The notes under the pieces are model-generated. The model had not been told where the DNA came from and did no database searches. It worked only from the letters and a program-made list of their open reading frames with translations. Positions 2,959-50,456 of a stretch of DNA of 50,456 bases are shown piece after piece (within the stretch, counting starts at the first letter, position 1; each line of letters begins with the position of its first letter). Origin of the DNA: Candidatus Brocadia sp. (GTDB taxonomy: Bacteria; Planctomycetota; Brocadiia; Brocadiales; Brocadiaceae). The translations under genes and the position numbers were made by a program. Where the stretch lies: contig WYAU01000053.1 of NCBI GenBank assembly GCA_011525665.1, positions 1-50,456 of the forward strand. Direction: 5' to 3'.

Positions 2959-5460
2959 ATGGCAGAGAGGGAATATAACTTTACCGATATTGAATGTAAA
3001 TGGCAGGGTTTTTGGGAAGGTTGCGGACTGTTCCGTGCCGATGAAGCCAGCAGGAAAGAAAAATTCTACTGTCTCGTCATGTTCCCGTATCCATCGGGCA
3101 CCCTGCATGTTGGTCATGGCAGAAACTACATTATCGGTGACGTTGTTGCGCGTTACAAGATTATGAAGGGTTACAACGTCCTTTCGACCATAGGGTGGGA
3201 TGCCTTCGGACTTCCCGCCGAAAATGCAGCCATCAAGGGTGGTGTCCATCCTGCCATCTGGACAAAGAACAATATTAAGGCTATGAAACAGCAACTCCAC
3301 AGGTGGGGTGTCGGATATGACTGGGACAGAGAGATTACGTCCTGTAATCCCGATTATTATAAATGGACACAATGGATATTTCTGAAACTCTACGAAAACA
3401 ATCTGGCTTATAAAAAGAAGGCCGCGGTGAACTGGTGCCCGTCCTGCGCTACCGTGCTGGCCAACGAACAGGTCGTGGACGGTTGTTGCGAACGCTGCGA
3501 TACCCCTGTACGGCAGCGGGACCTTGAGCAGTGGTTCTTCCGGATCAGTCAATATGCCCAAAAACTGCTGGACGACATTTCTTTGTTAGAAGGTTGGCCT
3601 GAGCGGGTTAAGACCATGCAGGCAAACTGGATCGGTCGCAGTGAAGGAGTTCGGGTCGATTTTAAGTTAGAAGGTTCAGGCAAGACTTTACCTTGCTTTA
3701 CTACACGTCCCGATACGCTTTATGGAGTGACCTTTGTTTCTTTAGCACCAGAACATCCCGTAATTGGAGAATTGATTTCAGGCACTCCTCAGGAAAAGGC
3801 AGTGGCGGACTTTGTGGACAAGGCACGCAACCAGGGGATGATGGAACGGACTGCCGAAGGGACAGAGAAGGAGGGGATATTTACGGGCAAGTACGTCGTT
3901 AATCCTGTCAATAACGATAGAGTCCCCATTTGGGTAGCCAACTATGTACTTATGGAATACGGTACGGGGGCCGTTATGGGTGTACCTGCCCATGACCAGC
4001 GGGATTTCCTCTTTGCAAAGAAATATAAGCTTCCCATCAAAATTGTTATTCAGCCTGGAGACAGGGAACTGCATGTTGACACGATGAAAGAGGCATACGT
4101 CGATGACGGCATACAAGTAAATTCGGGCAATTTCGACGGGATGCCGAATACAGAGGCAATAAAAAAAATTGCCATATACCTTGAATCCAAAGGACTTGGT
4201 ATGAAGACCGTAACCTATCGGTTGAGGGATTGGCTCATCTCCCGTCAGCGTTACTGGGGTGCACCTATCCCTATTATCTATTGTGAAAAATGCGGTATGT
4301 TACCGGTGCCTGAATCACAACTCCCGGTAGTACTACCCGAAAAGGTGGAATTTAAGCCGCACGGTATGAGTCCTCTGGCAGAAGTGGATTCCTTTATCAA
4401 CACAATTTGTCCGGAGTGTTGCGGAACGGCGCGGCGCGAGATTGATACGATGGATACATTTGTGGATTCAAGCTGGTATTTTCTGAGATACCTTTCTCCA
4501 AAGGATGAGAGACAACCGTTCGCCACAGAGAAGGTCAACAAATGGTTGCCGGTGGATCAGTATATCGGCGGGGTAGAACATGCCATTCTGCATCTGCTCT
4601 ACTCACGTTTTATTACCAGGGTGCTTTATGATCTCGGCTACATCAACTTTAAGGAGCCTTTTGAACACCTTTTTACACAGGGTATGATTATCAAGGAAGG
4701 GGCAAAGATGTCCAAGTCCAGGGGTAATGTGGTAAGCCCTGATATCCTCATTGATAAATACGGAGCGGATACGCAGCGACTCTATATACTTTTTATAGGC
4801 CCGCCCCAAAAAGATGCCGAGTGGAATGACCGGGGGGTGCTGGGTGCTCACCGGTTTCTGAACCGTTTGTGGCAAAAGATCAGCGACTATGACGACGTAT
4901 ATGTCAGGGTACAGAGAACAGAGATTCATATCCAGAAACTTTCGCCTGAGGCAAAAACCCTTTACCGCCAGACGAATCAGACGATTAAGAAGGTCGCAGA
5001 CGATATGGAAACTTCCTGGCATTTCAATACAGCTATTGCCTCTGTAATGGAGTTATTAAACAATGCAGATGTATTTAACGTTGTCATGCCCAGCAATGCT
5101 GCGGAAGAGCTTAATTTTAATGTCTTTCGCCACTCCATGGAGACAATCCTCCTGTTGATGGCCCCTTTTACCCCGCATATTTGCGAGGAATTGTGGGAAA
5201 TAATGGGAAATAAACCAAGCATCTTTCACCAGAGATGGCCTGCGTATGATAAAAATGCCATTCAGGAAGAAGTGGCAGAAATCGTAATTCAGATCAATAG
5301 CAAAGTCAGAAGCCGTCTATCTGTGCCAGTTGATATCAGTGAGGATGAATTGAAAAGGCGTGTGTTGAGCGATGAACGCATCGCCGGATTTTTGAACGGT
5401 AAGAAAGTTATTAATACCATTGTAGTGCCCAGGAAATTGCTGAATATCGTGGTGAAATAA
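2959..5460 (+). CDS. leuS: leucine--tRNA ligase
   Basis: Class I aminoacyl-tRNA synthetase that charges tRNA-Leu in the cytoplasm. At 833 residues it has the usual bacterial length. The ATP-binding HIGH signature appears as HVGH (50-53) and the second signature as KMSKS (583-587). A zinc-ribbon-like cysteine cluster (NWCPSC...CCERC) lies near 158-180 and a second (CEKCG...CPECC) in the 440-500 region. The CP1 editing domain lies at about 220-410, with the characteristic GTGAVMGVPAHDQRD block. The C-terminus carries the anticodon-binding helical bundle and a short beta domain. The start is supported by AAGGGA about 7 bases upstream. It stands alone between the tRNA-Ala/repeat region and a convergent ferredoxin gene. 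Nothing is missing, and it should be functional. Confidence 0.97.
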   Translation: MAEREYNFTDIECKWQGFWEGCGLFRADEASRKEKFYCLVMFPYPSGTLHVGHGRNYIIGDVVARYKIMKGYNVLSTIGWDAFGLPAENAAIKGGVHPAIWTKNNIKAMKQQLHRWGVGYDWDREITSCNPDYYKWTQWIFLKLYENNLAYKKKAAVNWCPSCATVLANEQVVDGCCERCDTPVRQRDLEQWFFRISQYAQKLLDDISLLEGWPERVKTMQANWIGRSEGVRVDFKLEGSGKTLPCFTTRPDTLYGVTFVSLAPEHPVIGELISGTPQEKAVADFVDKARNQGMMERTAEGTEKEGIFTGKYVVNPVNNDRVPIWVANYVLMEYGTGAVMGVPAHDQRDFLFAKKYKLPIKIVIQPGDRELHVDTMKEAYVDDGIQVNSGNFDGMPNTEAIKKIAIYLESKGLGMKTVTYRLRDWLISRQRYWGAPIPIIYCEKCGMLPVPESQLPVVLPEKVEFKPHGMSPLAEVDSFINTICPECCGTARREIDTMDTFVDSSWYFLRYLSPKDERQPFATEKVNKWLPVDQYIGGVEHAILHLLYSRFITRVLYDLGYINFKEPFEHLFTQGMIIKEGAKMSKSRGNVVSPDILIDKYGADTQRLYILFIGPPQKDAEWNDRGVLGAHRFLNRLWQKISDYDDVYVRVQRTEIHIQKLSPEAKTLYRQTNQTIKKVADDMETSWHFNTAIASVMELLNNADVFNVVMPSNAAEELNFNVFRHSMETILLLMAPFTPHICEELWEIMGNKPSIFHQRWPAYDKNAIQEEVAEIVIQINSKVRSRLSVPVDISEDELKRRVLSDERIAGFLNGKKVINTIVVPRKLLNIVVK

Positions 5461-5584
5461 GCAAATAGTGCAGCATCGCCGCAATCAAAATAACCACCCC
5501 TCTTTCCCCTCCTTCGCAAGCTTACAGTTGGGCAAAAATTGGCTGGACAAAATAACAGTAAACTGATTATGTAACGTGCACGCC

Positions 5585-5627
5585 AACCCCCTGAATCCCC
5601 CTTAGAAACTAGGGGGCGAAGGGGGTT
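5585..5627. repeat. nested C-rich palindromic repeat
   Basis: Outer arms AACCCCCT/AGGGGGTT enclose an inner hairpin CCCCCT-TAGAAACT-AGGGGG. It follows leuS and, with TTGTATTTT after the stem, may also act as its terminator. The rest of 5461-5842 holds a related C-rich stretch near 5495 and the ferredoxin terminator; I see no gene there. Confidence 0.6.
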
Positions 5628-5770
5628 GTATTTTACACCCATTTCAAATATAGGTTGAACTGTATATTTTGACAAGGCGTATTTTGTGAACTATACGCCA
5701 AAACCCTTGAATAATTGGGTATTTCCTGCCATAAACTTGTCCAGCAAAAAATTGTCCAACAGTTATACTA

Positions 5771-5801
5771 CCAAATAAAAGGGGCGAACAGCTATTCGCC
5801 C
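5771..5801 (-). terminator. rho-independent terminator of the ferredoxin gene
   Basis: On the minus strand the stem GGGCGAA/TTCGCCC with a 6-nt loop is followed by CTTTTATTT. It lies about 42 bases beyond the stop codon of the 4Fe-4S protein gene. Confidence 0.75.
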
Positions 5802-5842
5802 TTCTCGGTATTTATAAACTTACATCTTTTTGGTATCTCACT

Positions 5843-6295
5843 TTAGACGAGCTGATATTTAGCGTGCTTCTCTGTATATACCAATGCACCGGTCTTGCAT
5901 GCCTCCACACAGGCCATAGTGTCAAACCCCTTGCAATCATCGCAGTTAAAGGCAAAGTTGAGCTCAGTATCTTTCGTAATAGCTCCGAAAGGACATTCCG
6001 TTACACACGCCCAGCATCCGACGCATTTTTTTGTGTCAATAATCACGTTCCCGTCTTCATGTTTTGTAATTGCCCCATACTCACAGGCTGCCATACACTT
6101 TGGTTTTGCACAATTCTGGCATACTGTCATATGCGGTTTGTCTTTCCTGATAGACACTTGTAACCGGTATTGGGATTTGGGTGTTTCTGTAAAGGCTTCA
6201 TACAGGTTCATTGATACCGAGTGTCTCACTGCACACTCCATCATACATTGCTTGCACGTAACACATTTGTCTTTTATAAATTTTTTTTTCAGCAT
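5843..6295 (-). CDS. four-cluster 4Fe-4S ferredoxin (CooF/HycB type)
   Basis: A 150-residue soluble electron-transfer protein. Four cysteine groups are visible: CVTCKQCMMEC (about 11-21), CQNCAKPKCMAAC (about 60-72), CVGCWACVTEC (about 91-101) and CDDCKGFDTMACVEAC (about 118-133). This is the pattern of the CooF/HycB/DmsB-like polyferredoxins that relay electrons between a catalytic subunit and a partner. There is no Tat or Sec signal, so it is probably cytoplasmic. AAGGAG eight bases before the ATG supports the start. It is monocistronic with its own terminator and no catalytic subunit adjacent, so its partner (CO dehydrogenase, hydrogenase or another oxidoreductase) cannot be told from here. 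Confidence 0.85.
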   Translation of the reverse strand: MLKKKFIKDKCVTCKQCMMECAVRHSVSMNLYEAFTETPKSQYRLQVSIRKDKPHMTVCQNCAKPKCMAACEYGAITKHEDGNVIIDTKKCVGCWACVTECPFGAITKDTELNFAFNCDDCKGFDTMACVEACKTGALVYTEKHAKYQLV

Positions 6296-6553
6296 TTCTA
6301 GGCACTCCTTGTGTTTTTGAGGTAAATAGATAAAATAATTTTATAATAAATTTCAATAAGCCGCAACCAAAAAAGGTGAATTTTAGCGGAGATAATTGCC
6401 CGAAAAGTAAAAAATGTGGGATAAATTTATCCGTTTGTTTTCTAGGGCAATCCATTTTTTGTTTTAAGAATGGGCCAGTGTTATATACTATACGTATATT
6501 TTTGAATTGCTTTTCTTTATTTCAAAACTCATTTCCGGGGAATTGAACATCTG

Positions 6554-7708
6554 ATGGATTCAAAGGATAAGGAATTGAGCATTTGCATTGCCAATCATGA
6601 CCAGAAAAACCTGGTAAAAGAAGAATCGTTCCTGGGTAATCACTACAAGGTCATCTCCCGTTCCGGTCTGAATGTTACCGAAATACAAATTATTGAAATC
6701 CTTAAAGAACTTTCCGCTCCCGAAAGAATTTTTTTTCTCGGAAACAGGACAGGTGTGTGTGGCATTATTGCAAGGTACCTATACCCTGAAGCGGAGATAA
6801 CCATGCATTGCCTGGATTTGTATTATGCCAACAAAATCAAGCGGAACCTGTCAAGAAACGGTGTTTCGTCCGTGACGGTGTGGTGTAAGCCGTATATAGG
6901 GCAGAAAGAGGTTTTTGATGTAATTTTTCTTCAATTGTCAAAAGGCGGTGCCACAAAAGAATTGGTACTGGATTTTATTCAACAAGTACACCAGGCATTG
7001 CAAACAGGTGGGAAATGCTTTTTTTCACTCGAGGGGAATGACCCGTGGATTCAAAAACAAGTAGAAAAGGTTTTTGGGGGATTCTCCGTTTACTCCCAGG
7101 TCAAAGCAGGCTACTGTATAGTAACCACAAAGAAGGAAAGACTGAAAAGAGTGAGAAACTTTCAGGCAGAGTTTATCCTGACAATTTTTGGGAAAAAACC
7201 TATTCGCCTCATTACCGTTCCTGGTGTCTTTTCACACAGAGAGATAGATCAGGGGGCGCTGGCCCTCGCAGAAATTTCAGTTTCGGAATCCCAAAGAGGC
7301 GATGCCGTACTGGATATGGGTTGTGGTTGCGGAGCCGTCGGGATATCGGTTGCTGTAAACCAGGATGTAAGCAGAGTTTGCTTCGTTGATTCAAATTCAC
7401 GCGCTGTTTCTATAACTGAAAAAAATTGCCATCTCAACGGTCTGGAACGTTATGAAGTGGTAATGAGTGATACAGGAATAAAGGAAGAAGGTGGATTCAC
7501 CCTTTTTACAGGAAATCCGCCATATTTTTCCCATTACAAAATTTCGGAACTCTTTATTAACAGTGCATATAAGGCGTTAAAGCCGGGTGGAAGGGCGTAT
7601 ATTGTGGCAAAGACAGCCACATGGCACCGGAAATTTATGCAGAACGTGTTTGGTAATGCAGAGGTGATCAACAGAAGGGGATACGAGATTATAAAATCGA
7701 TCAGATAG
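6554..7708 (+). CDS. RsmC/RlmG-like class I SAM methyltransferase
   Basis: 384 residues in two halves, as in RsmC/RlmG (16S G1207 and 23S G1835 m2G methyltransferases). The N-terminal half (about 30-190) looks like a degenerate Rossmann methyltransferase domain with no clean SAM motif. The C-terminal half carries motif I VLDMGCGCGAVG (252-263) and the catalytic motif IV NPPYF (321-325), the N-P-P-(Y/F) type used on exocyclic amino groups of guanine or adenine. The exact target base cannot be decided from sequence. The start ATG follows GGGG at suitable distance. A pseudouridine synthase gene begins 38 bases downstream on the same strand, so the two probably form an rRNA-modification operon. 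Confidence 0.8.
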   Translation: MDSKDKELSICIANHDQKNLVKEESFLGNHYKVISRSGLNVTEIQIIEILKELSAPERIFFLGNRTGVCGIIARYLYPEAEITMHCLDLYYANKIKRNLSRNGVSSVTVWCKPYIGQKEVFDVIFLQLSKGGATKELVLDFIQQVHQALQTGGKCFFSLEGNDPWIQKQVEKVFGGFSVYSQVKAGYCIVTTKKERLKRVRNFQAEFILTIFGKKPIRLITVPGVFSHREIDQGALALAEISVSESQRGDAVLDMGCGCGAVGISVAVNQDVSRVCFVDSNSRAVSITEKNCHLNGLERYEVVMSDTGIKEEGGFTLFTGNPPYFSHYKISELFINSAYKALKPGGRAYIVAKTATWHRKFMQNVFGNAEVINRRGYEIIKSIR

Positions 7709-7746
7709 ATGTGTAAGGAATTTTTCCCCAGATTTTTCAGAAAGCA

Positions 7747-8577
7747 ATGCAAAAATTTATATTTAGCCGTGAAAGTGACGTACACACACTGCTCAATTTT
7801 ATTGCCCGGAAACTGACCGTATCCAAAAAAAAGGCGAAAGAGCTCCTGGATGAACGATTGGTTTTTGTAAATAAGAGACGGGTCTGGATCGCATCCTACC
7901 GGCTCCGCGAGGGGGACGTAGTTGAAATCCTTACGAGAGAGACAAAACCCCAAAAATTTCAGAAAAACACGATCCTATTTCAGGACAATCATTATCTGAT
8001 CGTTTCAAAACCCCCGGATATTGTAACAAATGGTCCGGAAAGTCTTGAAAGCAAACTGAGGGAGTATTTTAAAGACAACCGTATTCGGGCTGTTCACCGA
8101 CTGGACAAGGATACCTCGGGCGCCGTCATCTTTGCAACGACCAGGGATGCTTTTGAGCGTATAAAGGAATTATTTAAAAAAAATCTTATCGAAAAGGTCT
8201 ACAGGGTGATTGTGAAGGGTGGCGTAGGTAAAAAAACCTTTACCATAGACACCCCAATCCATGGACAAAAGGCCGTGACACATGCAAGACTCGTAAAAAA
8301 GGGCAAAGTTGCTTCCTATCTGGAGGTGAATATCGAAACAGGCAGGACGCATCAGATCCGGATACACCTCGCCTCTGCAGGATATCCTGTCATCGGAGAA
8401 ACAGAATACGACCGCAGACCTGTCGAGCATCCGTTATTAAGGAAAATCCGAAGGCAGATGCTCCATGCTTATCAACTATCTTTTATCCATCCGTATACTC
8501 AAAAGGCAGTATCCGTTACAGCAGATATTCCCGGCGATTTCAGTCACTGTCTTAAGACTGTGGGGCTTGCGGAATAA
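7747..8577 (+). CDS. RluA-family pseudouridine synthase
   Basis: Isomerises uridine to pseudouridine in structured RNA. The 276-residue protein starts with an S4 RNA-binding domain (about 13-60, LTVSKKKAKELLDERLVFVN). The catalytic domain follows, with the RluA motif HRLDKDTSG at 117-125, so Asp120 is the nucleophile. The GRTHQIRIHLA block (about 199-209) is the other conserved RluA motif. Domain order and length match RluC/RluD-type enzymes acting on 23S rRNA, but the site is not predictable. It follows the RsmC-like methyltransferase by 38 bases, pointing to co-transcription. The ribosome site is weak. Confidence 0.9.
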   Translation: MQKFIFSRESDVHTLLNFIARKLTVSKKKAKELLDERLVFVNKRRVWIASYRLREGDVVEILTRETKPQKFQKNTILFQDNHYLIVSKPPDIVTNGPESLESKLREYFKDNRIRAVHRLDKDTSGAVIFATTRDAFERIKELFKKNLIEKVYRVIVKGGVGKKTFTIDTPIHGQKAVTHARLVKKGKVASYLEVNIETGRTHQIRIHLASAGYPVIGETEYDRRPVEHPLLRKIRRQMLHAYQLSFIHPYTQKAVSVTADIPGDFSHCLKTVGLAE

Positions 8578-8668
8578 AAATACAATGGGCAGATTTCATT
8601 TTTCTTTTTGCGTGAAGTTTTAACTATGACGAAGGGTGCATGGTTTTGTGCTTCTTCCCAGCGCTTCA

Positions 8669-9082
8669 TTACGGCTTTTTATCCGCTTCGAGGACCGTCG
8701 GGGCGACCACCCTCTTTAAACCGGCCCCTTTTGCAGCATCCATGACATCAACGACGACACCGTAAGGGACATTCTTATCTGCCCGAAGAACAAGCGTTCT
8801 GTCGTCGTGTTTGGAAAAGGCATTCTTTAAAACCGTGACAAGGTTCTTTCGTTCCACAGGTTCATTCTGGAAAAACAGCTTTCCATCCTGTGAGATGGTT
8901 AAGACCCGCTCCTCGATCTTGCTGGTAGAGGCATATTTTGTTGAGGGCAGTTCTAGCTTGATATTTGGCTGTTCAATGAAACTGGATGTAACCAGAAAAA
9001 ACAGGAGGATGAGGAACAGCATGTCTACCATGGGGGTAAGATTTATAATAGATTTGGTAACGCGTTTTTCACGGAATTGCAT
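8669..9082 (-). CDS. exbD: ExbD/TolR-type biopolymer transport protein
   Basis: A 137-residue inner-membrane protein with one N-terminal transmembrane helix (about 12-34) that contains the conserved proton-path Asp in TPMVDMLF (Asp20). A periplasmic domain follows, with the family pattern LVLRADKNVPYGVVVDVMD. ExbD works with ExbB to convert proton-motive force into movement of a TonB- or TolA-like protein. It is the last gene of the TonB-like/exbB/exbD operon, 69 bases after exbB. TolR and ExbD are hard to separate by eye; there are no tolB or pal genes nearby. Confidence 0.9.
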   Translation of the reverse strand: MQFREKRVTKSIINLTPMVDMLFLILLFFLVTSSFIEQPNIKLELPSTKYASTSKIEERVLTISQDGKLFFQNEPVERKNLVTVLKNAFSKHDDRTLVLRADKNVPYGVVVDVMDAAKGAGLKRVVAPTVLEADKKP

Positions 9083-9151
9083 GGTTTTATAGAACAGGAA
9101 AAAACTTGCGGAAAAGAAAAGTTTCCCTAAAGTAATACAATGATCTGATGC

Positions 9152-9769
9152 TCATTTGTTATCGTGATCCTGAGCAGGGTAAAGTTTATTAAGGACAAGC
9201 ATGGAGTATTCTTCCATTTCCAGGACAAAGGTATCTACCTTTTTGTCGAAATAACTATAGGCAACCAGCGATGGGATTGCTATAAAAAGCCCAAACACGG
9301 TTGTTCGGATCGCTTCTGCCAGTCCTGCGGAAAATGCCTTGGCCTGCCCCAGTCCCAGTTCGGAAATAACACCGAAGATATCCTCTAATCCCAGCACCGT
9401 TCCAAGTAATCCTAATAAGGGAGCAACGGCAGTAATGACTTCTAATACCAAAAGTCTCCTTTCGAGCGACTTGGTTTCCTGCCGACCCGCGGCCTGGATG
9501 TCGATAAATTTTTCTTCCCGTGTGAGGTGGTTATTTGTAAGTATCCGCCGTAAGAGATTAGAAAAAGGACCGGAAATCACTTCACATTTCGAGATCGCAA
9601 AGGGTATATCTTTGTGACTGTGAATTGCTTCTATGGTTTGGATGATCTCCGGTTTTAAGATTTTATCCCTCCGTAAATTTATTGCCCTTTCAATGATCAC
9701 CGCAAGGGCTAAAACGGAACAAATGAGTAGTGGTATCATGAGAGGACCACCGCCTATAAGCCATTCCAA
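9152..9769 (-). CDS. exbB: MotA/TolQ/ExbB proton channel protein
   Basis: A 205-residue membrane protein with three transmembrane helices: about 10-30, 105-130 (VAPLLGLLGTVLGLEDIF) and 150-172 (TTVFGLFIAIPSLVAYSYF). The TVLGLEDIF and GL.IAIP segments are the MotA/TolQ/ExbB signature, including the conserved Thr residues lining the proton path. Translation most likely begins at the TTG 9769-9767, because AGGAGG sits about 10 bases upstream and no in-frame ATG lies near. It sits between the TonB-like gene and exbD on the same strand. It supplies the pentameric motor for the TonB-like protein. Confidence 0.9.
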   Translation of the reverse strand: MEWLIGGGPLMIPLLICSVLALAVIIERAINLRRDKILKPEIIQTIEAIHSHKDIPFAISKCEVISGPFSNLLRRILTNNHLTREEKFIDIQAAGRQETKSLERRLLVLEVITAVAPLLGLLGTVLGLEDIFGVISELGLGQAKAFSAGLAEAIRTTVFGLFIAIPSLVAYSYFDKKVDTFVLEMEEYSMLVLNKLYPAQDHDNK

Positions 9770-9825
9770 AGTATTATTTCCTCCTGTTTATAAAAAGCGT
9801 ACACAACGTAACAAAATCATTATTG

Positions 9826-11319
9826 TCAGAAAAAATAGAAATTAAATCTCACATCGATTGATGGCTCCTTGATGTGGGATGGGAAGGGATTCAATGGTGC
9901 TGCATTTTTGATCGAGGATACAAGACGGGAGGCAAGATTAAAATTCCCCGCATCGTCCACAATCTTTACTCCATCAATAGAACCATCCGGTAATACCTTA
10001 AATTCTACAATAATCGGTTTGTCATCTCTGGTTTCTAATTTAATCTCGGCACGGGTTCCGTATCCCAGGAACCAGTACAGGGATATTCTGTCCCTGATAT
10101 GTTTAAAATAATCGGCGTATTCATGCCTTTTGACGTTAAAAGACGGCGCACCGGGGATTACTGCATTTGATATCGTGTCCTCAAAAAGCACCGGGTCGTG
10201 GTTTGCACCCTCTGTCTTTGCGTTAACGGCAAAAGAGACCTTGGGTTTCTTTGATTCTTCCGGGCTTTCTTGTTCATCCAGGCCTCGTTCGAGTCTGCGC
10301 TGCGGTTCAATGCCCGGCAATTCCGGAGGAAGTACAGGTAGTTCAGGTATAGCGGCATCCATCCTCTTCATTTCCTGTGTTTCGCTTATTTCCTTTGCAT
10401 CCGTATCGGTCTCTTCTCTTGTTTTTTGTTTGCGGAGTAATGGCTGTAACGATTCTTCTTCTGTTTCAGCCTCCGTGTTTATTTCATTCCGTTTCTCCGT
10501 AAATAGCATCCCCTCGCTAGGGGGCAGATGTTCCGTTGCCTCTTCCTGGCTGATACTACGCCCGATGGTCAGTCGTTCTCTTTTGGACGGTTGTACGGTA
10601 TTTTCCGTTTTTATCGTTTTGTCCGGTTTTGTGGTCTTTTCCTCTGACGTATTCTCCCTTCTTTCTTCAGATGGTAATTGACTCTGTGGCATACGAAGAG
10701 GTTTCGCAGGAGGAGATTCTTGCTTCTCCAGACCTTTGGGCAAATTGGCATAGAGGGCCGGCGAATCTTTATCATGGACACTATCCTCAGGGATAATTGC
10801 CTGTGCCGTAACCTCCTGTTCGTGTGATTGTCGTCTGCTATCATAAGGTGCACCTGATTTTCCCTTGCCCAATAATGGCGCTTTGGAATGCCCTTCAGCG
10901 TGGGGTTCATTATTGACCGATTGTTTGTCGTCAGGAAAATTATCCTTTGCTATGGCTCCCTTTTCACCGATTTTATCTGTATCAGCGGTTGTTTCCTCGT
11001 CTTTGGCATTTTCTGAAGTATCGGTAAATATTTTGTATTTCTTTTTTTCAGAATCATCCTTCTTCTCCTGCCCGGTTTCGTCTTCTTTTGTATTTTGGCT
11101 TGCGGTGTTTTCTCTCCGGTCATCTGCATTTTCCAGTTCCAGGGTAACAGCATATTCACTCGGTTCACGAATAAAACTGTCTCGAAGTGACCTCAAACTG
11201 AAAATTTGATTTGCCTGCGGGGACATGAAAATGAGGACTGCATGTATGGCAAGGGACGCAACGATAAGAAGCAAAAACAGGTTTTTACTGAAAAATTCCG
11301 AACGTATCTTAAAGAACAT
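9826..11319 (-). CDS. TonB/TolA-like energy transducer with a long charged linker
   Basis: 497 residues. One N-terminal membrane anchor (about 13-32) is followed by roughly 330 residues of low-complexity, Glu/Lys/Asp/Thr-rich sequence predicted to be disordered. The C-terminal domain (about 400-497) contains YADYFKHIRDRISLYW, then LPDGSIDGVKIVDDAG, the TonB/TolA C-terminal alpha-beta pattern. The linker is longer than in E. coli TonB (239 residues total) and could span the periplasm to contact outer-membrane receptors. It is first in an operon with exbB and exbD. No TonB-dependent receptor is in the window (the porin at 28-29.4 kb is a trimeric-type porin), so the receptor it drives lies elsewhere. 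TonB versus TolA cannot be settled. Confidence 0.8.
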   Translation of the reverse strand: MFFKIRSEFFSKNLFLLLIVASLAIHAVLIFMSPQANQIFSLRSLRDSFIREPSEYAVTLELENADDRRENTASQNTKEDETGQEKKDDSEKKKYKIFTDTSENAKDEETTADTDKIGEKGAIAKDNFPDDKQSVNNEPHAEGHSKAPLLGKGKSGAPYDSRRQSHEQEVTAQAIIPEDSVHDKDSPALYANLPKGLEKQESPPAKPLRMPQSQLPSEERRENTSEEKTTKPDKTIKTENTVQPSKRERLTIGRSISQEEATEHLPPSEGMLFTEKRNEINTEAETEEESLQPLLRKQKTREETDTDAKEISETQEMKRMDAAIPELPVLPPELPGIEPQRRLERGLDEQESPEESKKPKVSFAVNAKTEGANHDPVLFEDTISNAVIPGAPSFNVKRHEYADYFKHIRDRISLYWFLGYGTRAEIKLETRDDKPIIVEFKVLPDGSIDGVKIVDDAGNFNLASRLVSSIKNAAPLNPFPSHIKEPSIDVRFNFYFF

Positions 11320-46285: not shown

Positions 46286-46522
46286 CATCCTGCACTGCTC
46301 CTCTGGGAGAAAAGCAAGCGTGATGAAATGATAGAGTTGCTGAAAGATTCTGGCTATGGCAAGAGTGAGGCATTCTATCGCGTTGCCCAGGCTATTTCTG
46401 AAACCTTGCCCAATGAAAGTAAGGAAAAGAAACTGCTGGATGGATTCCTGGCTGGTCGGGAAAGGTTGCGGGAAGAAATAACAAAAGAATCATCAATGCC
46501 GAAGCAAAAGAAACTGTTTTAA
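46286..46522 (+). pseudogene. C-terminal remnant of a large protein (DUF1156/adenine methylase-like)
   Basis: The frame opens right after a stop at 46283-46285 and reads HPALLLWEKSKRDEMIELL, then KDSGYGKSEAFYRVAQAIS, ETLPNESKEKKLLDGFLAG and a charged tail. I recognise the ALLLWE-x-x-KRDEM and ETLP-x-ESKEKKLLDGFL text as the C-terminus of DUF1156 adenine-specific DNA methylase-like proteins, which are usually about 900-1000 residues and linked to defence loci. Everything upstream is missing. The first ATG (46328) would give a 64-residue product with no plausible ribosome site. It is probably the relic of a deleted restriction or defence gene. Confidence 0.55.
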
Positions 46523-46530
46523 TGAGAAAA

Positions 46531-46692
46531 TACACAACCCCCTTGCCCCCTTTTTTAAGGGGGATTTCAATTAAGTTTTTAATGGGGATAGAACAGGAAG
46601 TTTTCCTTTACTAAGGAGAGCATTAAGTTCCCTTAACAAAGGGGAAAATTTTAAAGTCCCCCTTAATAAAGGGATATAAGGGGGTTGTTGTT
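46531..46692. repeat. MITE-like element with C-rich inverted ends
   Basis: The left end reads ACACAACCCCCTTGCCCCC then TTTTTTAAGGGGGATTT. The right end is its inverted counterpart, with AAAGTCCCCCTTAATAAAGG then GATATAAGGGGGTTGT. Between them lies another CCCTTAACAAAGGGG dyad. With inverted ends and no coding capacity this looks like a short non-autonomous element or compound repeat, related to those at 2827 and 5585. The rest of 46523-46891 shows nothing else. Confidence 0.6.
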
Positions 46693-46891
46693 CTCCGGAT
46701 GAAAAAGATATTTCCGTTTTTAGCATAATCCTGCTGATTCTGATTGATATCAGATATAGTATAAAATAACTGTTGGCAATTATAAAATAAAAGATTAATG
46801 TTTGCATCAATATTCAGGAGACATATTCAATGTACGTAGCCCACTCTCAGTTATCCTTAAATTATTCTGATTCGAATAAATCTGGAGATAT

Positions 46892-47573
46892 ATGGACTTT
46901 GTGAAATTCAATAGTTTAATAAGCAATAAGTCCTTATTTTTCTGCCGGGTTGATAAATTTTATGATACGTGGGAAGGTATTTTTCCAATCAAGATGATTC
47001 AAAAGTTTGAATTAGATTCAAAACAGTTTCCATCTATAGATGGAAATATGTACACCCTCTGTCAGTGGCAAATTACAGAAAGAAGCCCGCTCTCATTTAA
47101 TTAATTGTTGGCATGTAAATGAAAATGAGTCATTTGCAATGTGGAAAATTTACACTAAGGATTCACCATCTATCGCTATTCAGTCTACTATAGGGCGCTT
47201 AAAACGTTGTTTTGATGTAAATAGTGAAAGAATATGGATCGGTGAAGTAGAGTATATAGATTTCAGGGAATGGGAACCTAAAAATCGCTTTTTTAACGCT
47301 GATACACCAAATACACTAAAAACGTTTTTCTTAAAGTGGCATTACTTTCAATATGAAAATGAAATCCGGGCTGTTATTAATAAAGCATACATTAATCATA
47401 AAAGTGAAACTGGAATCTTAGTAAGTATTAGCTTAAATGAATTGATCGAATGTATTTATCTTTCTCCAGATACTGACCAAGAAAATGAAAAAAAAGTCAA
47501 GGATCTCTTAGAAAAATATAATTATTCATTTCCAATAAAGAAATCAGATTTGGGAATGAGACTATACATGTGA
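46892..47573 (+). pseudogene. DUF2971-family gene with a frameshift
   Basis: Two overlapping frames form one DUF2971 protein. The first (46892-47104) gives KFNSLISNKSLFFCRVDKF and YDTWEGIF, the usual DUF2971 N-terminus. The second (to 47573) continues LINCWHVNENESFAMWKIY, IAIQSTIGRLKRCF, FLKWHYFQYENEIRAVI and YLSPDTDQE, the rest of the domain. The switch falls at about 47075-47100, near GAAAGAAGCCC, where one indel would restore a ~226-residue protein of normal length. DUF2971 function is unknown; such genes often occur in accessory and cassette regions. A sequencing indel cannot be excluded. About 40 bases downstream is an attC-like palindrome, so the gene may be an integron-type cassette. 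Confidence 0.7.
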
Positions 47574-47609
47574 TTTATTTTAAATAAAGTATGAAATTTA
47601 ATAAAAAGC

Positions 47610-47730
47610 TGCTAACAACTCAATCCACGAGACCGCAAACAGTGCTTTTGTTTGTGCACCGTTTCACAACTGGGGTATCCGAGGGAATGGTGCATTGAAG
47701 TGTTTGCATCTGGCGTCTCAGGCGTTATAC
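47610..47730 (+). other. attC-like imperfect palindrome after the DUF2971 gene
   Basis: The left side begins TGCTAACAACTCAATCCACG, close to integron attC left ends (R'' box with AAC). The right side ends GTCTCAGGCGTTATAC, resembling an L'-R' end (GCGTTA). Nested pairings are AACAACT/AGTTGTT (to 47739), CC..GAGAC/GTCTC..GG, GCAAACA/TGTTTGC and TGCACC/GGTGCA, with unpaired bases on one side. The length of about 121 bp is in the range of long attC sites. The R'' box is not a perfect match to RYYYAAC, and no integron integrase is in the window. Confidence 0.5.
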
Positions 47731-47776
47731 ATTAGTTGTTTCTTACAAGACCTTTTCTCTTGACTCGAAGTATTGA

Positions 47777-48520
47777 ATGCATAACGAACAAGCATCTTCT
47801 AAGGTACCTGTAATTCTGTGCCATGAGAGTAGCGTTCCAGCATATTCGATATTTAATCCGAATGACTGGAATGGTGCCAGCAAAGCAATCATTCATTCAT
47901 GTGCGGCCCAATATAGCCTTCTTCTATACGAATCATCAAAGCTAAAGGTGATTTTCCAAAACGCAGATGCTTTATGTCAGCCCAGATTTGCAGATTTAGA
48001 AAGTCAGTGGAATACTGCAAAGTGGGAAATTAATACTTGCTCTTATTTTGTCGAGATTCCTGATGCTCATCTCAGTATTCAGGCGTTTCTTGGGTCGATT
48101 AAGATTTTTCTTGATATAATCGTTCAGTTAATTTCTGCACAAGGTATTGTTTTTCAACAGATACATGGATTTCATAAGAAAGATGGCGATGTTGGCGGAA
48201 AGCTTATTAATGCATTGAGAAAAAATGCAAAAAAGGAAACCCAGAAGATAGCAGTAAAATTGGATGATTTGATTACTCGGCACAAAGCTATATGGATAGA
48301 TCAGGCTGTAAAAGCACGGGATATTTTTATACATCCTGAAAAGGGATTTTCCAGTGTGATGTTTGCCCTTGATCTTCAAGTTGATGAAGGGAAACTACGA
48401 CTGGTCCGGGTGATCAAGCCATCGATTAACGAAGAAGAGTTTGATAGATATGCTGAAAAAACTACTGGGTATATCGCAGAGTTTTCTGAACAGTTTCTAC
48501 AGCTCATAAAAAATGTCTAA
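47777..48520 (+). CDS. hypothetical protein with a possible HEPN RNase motif
   Basis: I do not recognise a named family with certainty. The 247 residues are mostly helical after a short N-terminal strand region. AVKARDIFIHPEKG near 177-190 contains R-D-I-F-I-H, the R-x4-H arrangement of HEPN ribonucleases and of HEPN-fold proteins annotated as Cthe_2314/MAE_28990-like. Helices before it (AFLGSIKIFLDIIVQLISAQ) fit the four-helix HEPN bundle. No partner nucleotidyltransferase (MNT) gene is adjacent. The stop codon lies within GTCTAAC, which matches the attC R'' consensus, but no matching right end at normal distance was found. Its ribosome site is weak. It could be a toxin or a defence effector; this is an inference. 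Confidence 0.55.
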   Translation: MHNEQASSKVPVILCHESSVPAYSIFNPNDWNGASKAIIHSCAAQYSLLLYESSKLKVIFQNADALCQPRFADLESQWNTAKWEINTCSYFVEIPDAHLSIQAFLGSIKIFLDIIVQLISAQGIVFQQIHGFHKKDGDVGGKLINALRKNAKKETQKIAVKLDDLITRHKAIWIDQAVKARDIFIHPEKGFSSVMFALDLQVDEGKLRLVRVIKPSINEEEFDRYAEKTTGYIAEFSEQFLQLIKNV

Positions 48521-48556
48521 CTGCCATTTGATGAAGGGTAGGTTAAGCGAATGCGA

Positions 48557-48620: not shown

Positions 48621-48785
48621 ATGAAAGACAAGGAAGAATTTAAAGAGTTATATGGATGGGATAATGGAAAGATATATTTTATGGATGAAGAGCGCAAAAA
48701 AGAATGGTGTGTAACTGATAATAAAGAATTGTATAATCAATTGATAGAAATTTACAGAAAATATTTTAGGAGTAATTACAAATGA
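48621..48785 (+). CDS. 54-residue protein upstream of and overlapping the DUF433 antitoxin
   Basis: The ORF runs ATG to TGA for 54 codons: it starts MKDKEEFKELYGWDNGKI, has an acidic/aromatic middle (DEERKKEWCVTDNKEL) and ends RKYFRSNYK. AAAGGTGG lies about 6 bases before the ATG. Its TGA overlaps the DUF433 ATG as ATGA, the classic sign of translational coupling, which supports it as a real gene. I know no family for it. It may be a third component, or an antitoxin accessory, of the DUF433/DUF5615 operon. Confidence 0.65.
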   Translation: MKDKEEFKELYGWDNGKIYFMDEERKKEWCVTDNKELYNQLIEIYRKYFRSNYK

Positions 48786-49012
48786 AGGTATTTGATCGGA
48801 TTGAGATTAATCCACGAATATGTAATGGTAAGCCGGTAATTAAGGGCACTCGGATACCCATATCGGTGATTCTTGAACTGATAGCAGAGGGTAAATCTTG
48901 GCAGGCTATACTCGATGGTTATCCTGAATTGACGAAAGATGATATCTATGCTGCCGTACATTATGCAAAGGTATCCCTCGATCATAGTGAGTTAGAAGAA
49001 ATTAATGTCTAA
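48782..49012 (+). CDS. DUF433 antitoxin
   Basis: 76 residues of the DUF433 type, a small helix-turn-helix protein (VapB-like antitoxin family). The family signature is complete: RIEINPRICNGKPVIKGTR, then IPISVILELIAEG, SWQAILDGYPELTKDDI and AAVHYAK. AGGAG lies upstream of the ATG. It is the antitoxin partner of the DUF5615 PIN-like protein next door, whose gene overlaps its 3' end by 8 bases. DUF433 proteins bind DNA and usually repress their own operon. The upstream 54-residue ORF overlaps its start. Confidence 0.9.
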   Translation: MKVFDRIEINPRICNGKPVIKGTRIPISVILELIAEGKSWQAILDGYPELTKDDIYAAVHYAKVSLDHSELEEINV

Positions 49013-49376
49013 TTCGTTAAGGCTCTATTTAGACCAAATGTTTCAAGTTGATGTCGCTCAAGCCTTGCGTGAGCAAGGATATGATGTATTGCGCGCTTCC
49101 GAAACCGGTCTGGCAAGGGTGGATGACTGTCAGATTTTAGAAAAGGCAATATCCGAAAATCGCATATTGATTACCCTGGATGAACATTTTGGAAATTGGG
49201 TAGTATTGCCGCTTAGTAAACATCCAGGTGTTATACGAATTAAGGTGACTCCAACTACCTCTAGTAAAGTTATTAAACTGCTGTCGCATTTCTTACGGAA
49301 TCATACACAGGAACAATTTATAGACCATTTAGTTATACTATCAGGAAAATGCGCAAAGTGGATTTTGACAGCATAA
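49005..49376 (+). CDS. DUF5615 PIN-like toxin
   Basis: 123 residues of the DUF5615 (Mut7-C/PIN-like) family. LRLYLDQMFQVDVAQALREQ carries the first acidic residue (normally LLDE/N), GYDVLRASE and DDCQILEKAISENR follow, then ILITLDEHFGNW, with the second acidic pair that completes the PIN active site. The tail (KVIKLLSHFLRNHTQEQFIDHLVIL) is typical. It pairs with DUF433 in known toxin-antitoxin operons and is predicted to be an endoribonuclease. The start overlaps the antitoxin gene by 8 bases (ATGTCTAA). Confidence 0.88.
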   Translation: MSNSLRLYLDQMFQVDVAQALREQGYDVLRASETGLARVDDCQILEKAISENRILITLDEHFGNWVVLPLSKHPGVIRIKVTPTTSSKVIKLLSHFLRNHTQEQFIDHLVILSGKCAKWILTA

Positions 49377-49386
49377 AATAATACGC

Positions 49387-49659
49387 ATGGACAACGAATA
49401 TAAAGAAACATACACAAAGCTACACAAAATTTACAAGAAATATCAAAAGAAGTATAAATGTAACCCAGACTCACATCAAATGTGTTGTATGTGGTCAACG
49501 GAGGATCCCCCGGATACAATCGAGGATACTGAACAAATATATGAAATAGAGAAGGCTTTTGAGATAAATTTGGATGAAGATGAGGCACTTGTACTTTATG
49601 ATATGGAGTTAGATGAAGCAGCTCAAAGGATTATTGAGATAAAGAGGAGAAAATGCTAA
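49387..49659 (+). CDS. small acidic hypothetical protein
   Basis: I do not recognise a family. The 90 residues start with a Lys/Tyr-rich helix (ETYTKLHKIYKKYQKKYKC), followed by a cysteine-containing turn (HQMCCMWSTEDPPD) and an acidic helical C-terminus (EINLDEDEALVLYDMELDEA). It begins 10 bases after the toxin gene and may be the fourth gene of that operon. The stop codon lies in TGCTAACAAGG, similar to the left end of the attC-like site at 47610, but no right end is visible. The ribosome site is weak. Confidence 0.55.
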   Translation: MDNEYKETYTKLHKIYKKYQKKYKCNPDSHQMCCMWSTEDPPDTIEDTEQIYEIEKAFEINLDEDEALVLYDMELDEAAQRIIEIKRRKC

Positions 49660-49713
49660 CAAGGCACTCAAAACCGACCCTCAAAAATTGCCCGTTTTTA
49701 TAATTCTTCGCGC

Positions 49714-49817: not shown

Positions 49818-50042
49818 ATGATCACATATAAATTTTCGGTGGTAATCGAAAAAGATCGTGAGGGTTATTTTGCCTTTTGTCCCGAACTCCAGGGTTGCTA
49901 TACACAGGGAGACACTTATGAGGAGGTATTGGAGAATATCAAAGACGCTATAAGGCTTCATATAGACGACAGAATTGCAAGCGGTGAAGATATTCCACAA
50001 TCTGAATCCGTGAGTTTGACACTTATGGAAGTATCAGTATGA
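49818..50042 (+). CDS. hicB: HicB-type antitoxin
   Basis: 74 residues. The HicB partial RNase-H-like fold is clear: FSVVIEKDREGYFAFCPEL, QGCYTQGDTYEEVLENIKDAI and RLHIDD, ending in a short tail rather than a separate DNA-binding domain. It neutralises HicA by binding its active site. AGGAGGT lies about 7 bases before the ATG. The stop overlaps the hicA start by four bases (ATGA), so they are translationally coupled in antitoxin-first order. Confidence 0.93.
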   Translation: MITYKFSVVIEKDREGYFAFCPELQGCYTQGDTYEEVLENIKDAIRLHIDDRIASGEDIPQSESVSLTLMEVSV

Positions 50043-50269
50043 CAGAGAAGTTGCCAAGAGTCACCGCTGTAGATACTATCAAGGCATTGGAAAGGGCAGG
50101 CTTTTACTTTTCCCGACAGAGCGGAAGTCATAAGATATACAAAAATAAAGAAGGTAAAAGAACGACAGTTCCTTATCATTCAGGCAAAATACTTCATCCC
50201 AAGACATTAAAGAGTATTTTAAGAGATGCGGATCTTACGATAGAAAAATTTAAAGAATTGATGAAATAA
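50039..50269 (+). CDS. hicA: HicA mRNA interferase toxin
   Basis: 76 residues of the double-stranded RNA-binding-like HicA fold. SGSHKIYKN carries the catalytic His (SGSH), and the VPYHSGKILHPKTLKSIL block is the second signature. The length (60-80) is typical. HicA cleaves mRNA when HicB is degraded. It is coupled to hicB by an ATGA overlap. Confidence 0.93.
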   Translation: MTEKLPRVTAVDTIKALERAGFYFSRQSGSHKIYKNKEGKRTTVPYHSGKILHPKTLKSILRDADLTIEKFKELMK

Positions 50270-50382
50270 AAAAAAATAATTGTATAATCAAATAATTGAA
50301 ATTTTAGAAAAGAAACACAACCCCCTGAATCCCCCTAGTTTATTCTAGTCAAGTATTATTTTATAATAAATTAAGATTAATT

Positions 50383-50435
50383 TGATTGTGGCTAACGGAA
50401 GGAGGGCGTAGCCCGACTGGAGTTAGCCACAATCA
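50383..50435. repeat. REP-like palindrome at the right edge
   Basis: Perfect 14-bp arms TGATTGTGGCTAAC and GTTAGCCACAATCA enclose a 25-nt segment with its own GGGC-GTA-GCCC hairpin. This is the bulged structure of REP-type elements. A half copy of the C-rich repeat (ACAACCCCCTGAATCCCCCT) sits just upstream at about 50316-50335. Confidence 0.7.
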
Positions 50436-50456
50436 CCGCTCATTTTTCACTTCATC

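Follow-up and report, generated by a model that had tools for sequence, protein, structure and literature searches.

Does a gene followed by an attC-like string near the end of a contig represent an integron cassette when no integrase gene stands beside it? The question is raised by a stretch of 50,456 nucleotides (the window), which is an entire contig of the 3.63-Mb draft genome of Candidatus Brocadia, an anammox bacterium. The original prediction proposed an integron-type cassette, based on a DUF2971 gene and a palindrome-like string behind it. Our results support that reading, but on different grounds: an attI site upstream, a covariance-model match to the string and agreement between the cassette boundaries. 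The palindrome, which had been the stated reason, proved weak. The integron reading is now much firmer because the attI, previously unseen, lies directly upstream of the DUF2971 gene. We conclude that the locus is very probably a decayed, integrase-less integron head that comprises attI, a DUF2971 cassette, a decayed attC and a probable second cassette.

The DUF2971 gene and its surroundings

The DUF2971 gene (46892-47573, + strand) is frameshifted, with the N-terminal part (46892-47104) and the body (47040-47573) in different frames and an apparent additional frame break ahead of 46892. The break, for which an assembly error may be an alternative cause, had been overlooked in the original prediction; the identity of the gene was correct. 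By tblastn the body matches plasmid proteins annotated as DUF2971, and its 177 amino acids match the PADLOC candidate defence family PDC-S31 (E 3.5e-22). A Pfam search returned no match for the gene. Its function in the window is doubtful because the reading frame is broken. Intact homologues exist, and two of them, from genomes belonging to this family, each precede an intact attC scoring 28.8 bits (L230, 2160-2269; L233, 2003-2057). L233 also has an additional attC 5′ half at 2711, and the two genes after its DUF2971 homologue look like a nucleotidyltransferase/HEPN pair, judging from their sequences.

Upstream of the DUF2971 gene is a remnant of an HmaB-type DNA methylase of the Hma defence system (46286-46519, + strand). 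It retains the last 78 residues, which by tblastn share 91% identity with residues 841-918 of HmaB in L082, a locus of a related genome. A MITE-like repeat with G+C-rich ends (46527-46699) follows the remnant, and pieces of it, 35-70 bp long, are found repeatedly across the Brocadia genomes that were searched. All the genes of the window tail are on the + strand, as noted previously. Those farther downstream include a DUF433/DUF5615 pair (48782-49376), a 90-aa gene of no assigned function (49387-49659) and a HicB/HicA toxin-antitoxin pair (49818-50269). A damaged copy of the 90-aa gene on contig C5 (L063) adjoins an hmaC-like gene. The contig ends inside a repeat (50313-50456) that contains the inverted repeat GTGGCTAAC...GTTAGCCAC, and pieces of this repeat with 97-100% identity were found on five other contigs.

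The attI element and its promoter

Between the MITE-like repeat and the DUF2971 gene is a + strand element (46704-46802) whose Pc-like promoter has a TTGATA box and an AT-rich -10 region; the element ends at a crossover G|TT (46800/46801). It matched our attI sequence model, R1, with an E-value of 8.7e-15, which is optimistic given that the window copy is among the 12 sequences used for the model; the nhmmer E-value was 3.9e-13. Copies were detected behind an intI remnant on contig C93 of the same genome, in the related genome G007 and, in two Brocadia genomes, at the intI locus. Those located beside intI agree as far as ATG|TT and diverge beyond this point. Likewise, among 43 attI copies, conservation extends from a TTGACA -35 box to ATGTT and falls to background level immediately after, as expected for the crossover point. 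We read 46704-46802 as the attI of the anammox integrase, with a sigma-70-like promoter directed into the cassette.

The element is widespread, with about 50 strong copies across 11 Brocadia genomes. Many of these copies lack intI and some lack G|TT, so part of this attI-like family may be promoters only. Some copies form tandem attI-gene-attI arrangements, in which elements 600-1700 bp apart enclose one or two genes (e.g., L126, L127, L128 and L130). The abundance of copies favors an alternative in which the window element is a mobile promoter or 5′ leader, the attC resemblance arose by chance, and DUF2971 and the gene behind it (ORF247) are ordinary island genes. We consider this improbable. 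In three anammox genera, represented by B. pituitae, Kuenenia hertensis and Scalindua rubra, the element keeps a nearly constant distance from an intact intI, about 464 bp ahead of where the aligned gene begins, and its conservation ends precisely at G|TT. The DUF2971 homologues described above are cassettes elsewhere, which also argues against a mobile promoter, as do the attC scores and the cassette boundaries described below.

The attC site and cassette boundaries

The string TGCTAACAACTC...GGCGTTATAC spans 121 bp (47610-47730, + strand) and begins 36 bases past the DUF2971 stop codon at 47573. It consists of an R″ box TGCTAAC (47610-47616), a canonical 5′ half, a decayed L′ and an R′ box GTTATAC (47724-47730). 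The string, its length and its spacing from the gene were thus correctly described before, but its significance as an imperfect palindrome was not borne out. The half-versus-half complementarity of 11 was equalled by 89 of 400 dinucleotide shuffles, and folding of the bottom strand was no better than that of shuffled sequence (z -0.16). For comparison, seven attC-like sites from elsewhere in Brocadia were folded as well: six gave z from -2.3 to -6.7, and one gave -1.8. The hairpin with R boxes forced has an energy of -11.5 kcal/mol, versus -13.7 kcal/mol for unconstrained folding. Unconstrained folding did not tell the window site apart from shuffled sequences. The site was also missed by two anchored R″/R′ scanners, because just four of the seven R-box positions pair with the R′ that follows. 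Such limited pairing fits an R′ that is part of the next cassette. The lack of a palindrome is a point in favor of the mobile-promoter alternative.

Planctomycete attC sites have been modelled earlier (PMC8352920). For this study, a covariance model that includes both the R and the L boxes (R2) was trained only on 28 attC sites of diverse non-Brocadia bacteria, each taken from the side of an integron integrase on which the cassettes lie. Applied to the 50-kb window, R2 returned 47610-47730 as the top match with 17.4 bits (E 0.028, the R2 E-values being rough), and the runner-up scored 10.5 bits. Intact Brocadia attCs mostly score 22-34 bits, and others 13-21 bits. For the 5′ half of the attC, a position weight matrix gave 21.4 bits at the window site (p 2.6e-8 per position), the highest value on both strands, versus a maximum of 17.5 bits in ten shuffled copies of the window. 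The 3′ half scored only 2.7 bits, which counts against the integron reading. The 5′-half score and the R2 match led us to reject a chance attC resemblance, and they stand against the mobile-promoter alternative. From these scores, and the range of R2 scores among intact Brocadia attCs, the site reads as a genuine attC that has decayed in its 3′ half. A blastn search with 47610-47730 found no match in the same genome or in plasmids.

The first bases of a cassette and its R″ box derive from one site in the circular form, so the two are expected to be complementary. This boundary rule holds at 14 other attI loci, where 39 of 56 variable positions match; the mean of permuted pairs was 25, and none of 10,000 permutations did as well. 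The cassette start matches its own R″ at all seven positions in six of the 14 loci. In the window, the first cassette (46801-47724, + strand, 924 bp) carries the DUF2971 gene, and its start, (G)TTTGCA, matches its R″ TGCTAAC at six of seven positions. That the rule holds here is further evidence against an element that is simply a mobile promoter.

A second cassette probably follows directly (47725-48521, + strand), carrying ORF247 (47777-48520) and ending in an R″ box GTCTAAC (48515-48521). The original prediction had pointed out this string and a TGCTAAC (49654-49660) as R″-like, and indeed both are present and each holds the stop codon of its gene. Two observations suggest that ORF247 is a cassette gene: it starts right behind the attC, and GTTATAC, where the cassette begins, matches GTCTAAC at six of seven positions, as predicted by the boundary rule. 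A less likely variant, compatible with the decayed integron head, is that DUF2971 is a true cassette whereas ORF247 is unrelated and GTCTAAC occurs by chance. In favor of a single cassette, the 27-base 5′-half score at 48515 is -9.2, and an RYYYAAC string across a TAA stop codon is not rare. Nothing else of the second cassette's attC is left: from 48528, seven bases past the R″, the sequence already resembles the L082 flank. ORF247 has no relative in Pfam, PADLOC, NCBIfam, plasmids, phage or viral contigs. Its only homologue found in the phylum (L227, 35% identity) is not visibly a cassette, which again fits a single cassette. On balance, we think that ORF247 is probably a second cassette.

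An isolated attC 5′ half, TGCTAACAAGGCACTCAAAACCGACCC, is located over the stop codon of the 90-aa gene (49654-49680, + strand). With 18.4 bits it is the second best match to the position weight matrix in the window; its 3′ half is absent, and R2 gave no match there.

Integrase genes and related loci

The TIGR02249 search of the window's contig detected nothing beyond a weak match at 2326-2433, in a tyrosine-recombinase remnant at 2326-2448. This C-terminal integrase remnant adjoins a tRNA gene (2545-2617), which suggests an old tRNA-borne integrative element; an Rfam search returned tRNA only. There is thus no local integron integrase, and the only intI found in the genome is a broken copy on contig C93. 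The wider genome does hold further integron pieces. R2 returned ten matches up to E 10 across it, the best with 39.6 bits and six with 24-40 bits, and the window's best match, 47610-47730, is therefore exceeded elsewhere in the genome. The original prediction was to be refuted by a site scoring below threshold in a genome devoid of further attC sites and of an integrase; the top rank of 47610-47730 in the window, the stronger matches elsewhere and the intI remnant on C93 speak against that outcome. Across the genus, the attC 5′-half pattern is enriched relative to a reversed control.

The C93 locus (L049, 338-1800) is a second integron head, with the intI remnant, an attI, an ankyrin-repeat gene and an attC-like site that is strongly palindromic (z -6.7). 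Its cassette start GTTCGCG matches the R″ CGCGAAC by eye; the matrix scan missed this cassette.

The closest comparison to the window comes from L082 (G007:C1:260000-275000, 2966-10642), which has the order intact hmaB, attI, a gene encoding a 317-aa protein, a DUF433 gene and hmaC. Its HmaB and HmaC were identified by PADLOC (E 1.9e-135 and 6e-124, respectively). The 317-aa gene behind the attI is an orphan and differs from the first gene in the window. Thus, the first gene in one slot of an Hma defence locus differs between two species, which is what a cassette platform would produce. The L082 comparison is weakest in that no recognisable attC was found behind the 317-aa gene, a result that would fit a mobile promoter.

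L082 also bears on whether the DUF2971 cassette was inserted at an ordinary genomic position of the attG type, next to a coincidentally attI-like sequence. Such sites are recognised as integron-integrase substrates (PMC12901181), and Shewanella genomes often carry solitary attC cassettes (PMC9229058). We regard this alternative as very unlikely: the attI match (E 8.7e-15) stops exactly where the cassette starts, and L082 has the same attI at the matching place with a different gene.

Under the preferred reading of a decayed integron head, an anammox-type IntI would have inserted the DUF2971 cassette into the attI between G and TT, and the attI promoter would have driven its expression. A second cassette, carrying ORF247, would have come to lie after the DUF2971 cassette. 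The intI would then have been lost, with the 3′ half of the attC and the DUF2971 frame decaying in place. Of the attC of the second cassette, only the R″ box may have survived, at the point where similarity to the L082 flank sets in. We infer that the site in the window is now immobile.

Comparison with known integrons and implications

The locus is not a complete integron, as the attI with its cassette promoter is present and no adjacent intI is. The term SALIN, for a single attC site lacking an integron-integrase, has been used for Shewanella (PMC9229058). The window resembles a SALIN in having one attC beside one gene, no integrase nearby and further attC sites scattered in the genome; it differs in keeping an attI and promoter upstream and in the truncated second cassette that probably follows. 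It fits SALIN as used in that study, with attI retained. A CALIN is a cluster of attC sites lacking an integron-integrase, for which the IntegronFinder 2.0 default requires at least two attC sites (PMC9024848). The window likewise has cassettes without an integrase, but it contains one attC plus half sites. We rejected a CALIN assignment, as only one attC stands out by model and the sites at 48515 and 49654 are partial.

The window shares the attI/promoter, the attC consensus and the boundary rule (tested in Brocadia) with the chromosomal integrons that other anammox bacteria carry, namely B. pituitae (AP021856.1), Kuenenia hertensis and Scalindua rubra. Unlike the window, these integrons have an intact intI that faces away from the attI. 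Integrons of anammox bacteria are apparently not treated in the searched papers that bring up integrons together with Brocadia or anammox, as far as titles and abstracts indicate. For attI copies distant from intI, the nearest precedent is provided by the Delta-attI cassettes found in mobile integrons (PMC12901181). In these an attI also occurs away from its canonical position, as in the Brocadia tandem L126; they belong to resistance integrons with tested recombination, whereas the Brocadia case is deduced from sequence.

As an integrase-less fragment produced by integron decay, the locus is of an ordinary kind. It illustrates such decay, in that the integrase is gone and the attI and attC boxes are still legible. 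What lifts it above ordinary decay is the dispersed attI family and the tie to a defence locus. In anammox bacteria, the analysis links integron cassettes to a candidate anti-phage family, DUF2971/PDC-S31. It provides an attI model with which integron heads that lack intI can be located in Brocadia, Kuenenia and Scalindua. It also raises a testable question, namely why there are so many attI copies. One speculative answer, which we put forward tentatively, is that Brocadia chromosomes carry many separate attI/promoter platforms, every one holding a captured gene of its own and some of them lying within defence operons (Hma, for example). A single integron integrase would load these platforms, or would have loaded them in the past, from a distance, making them a distributed integron in place of one long array.
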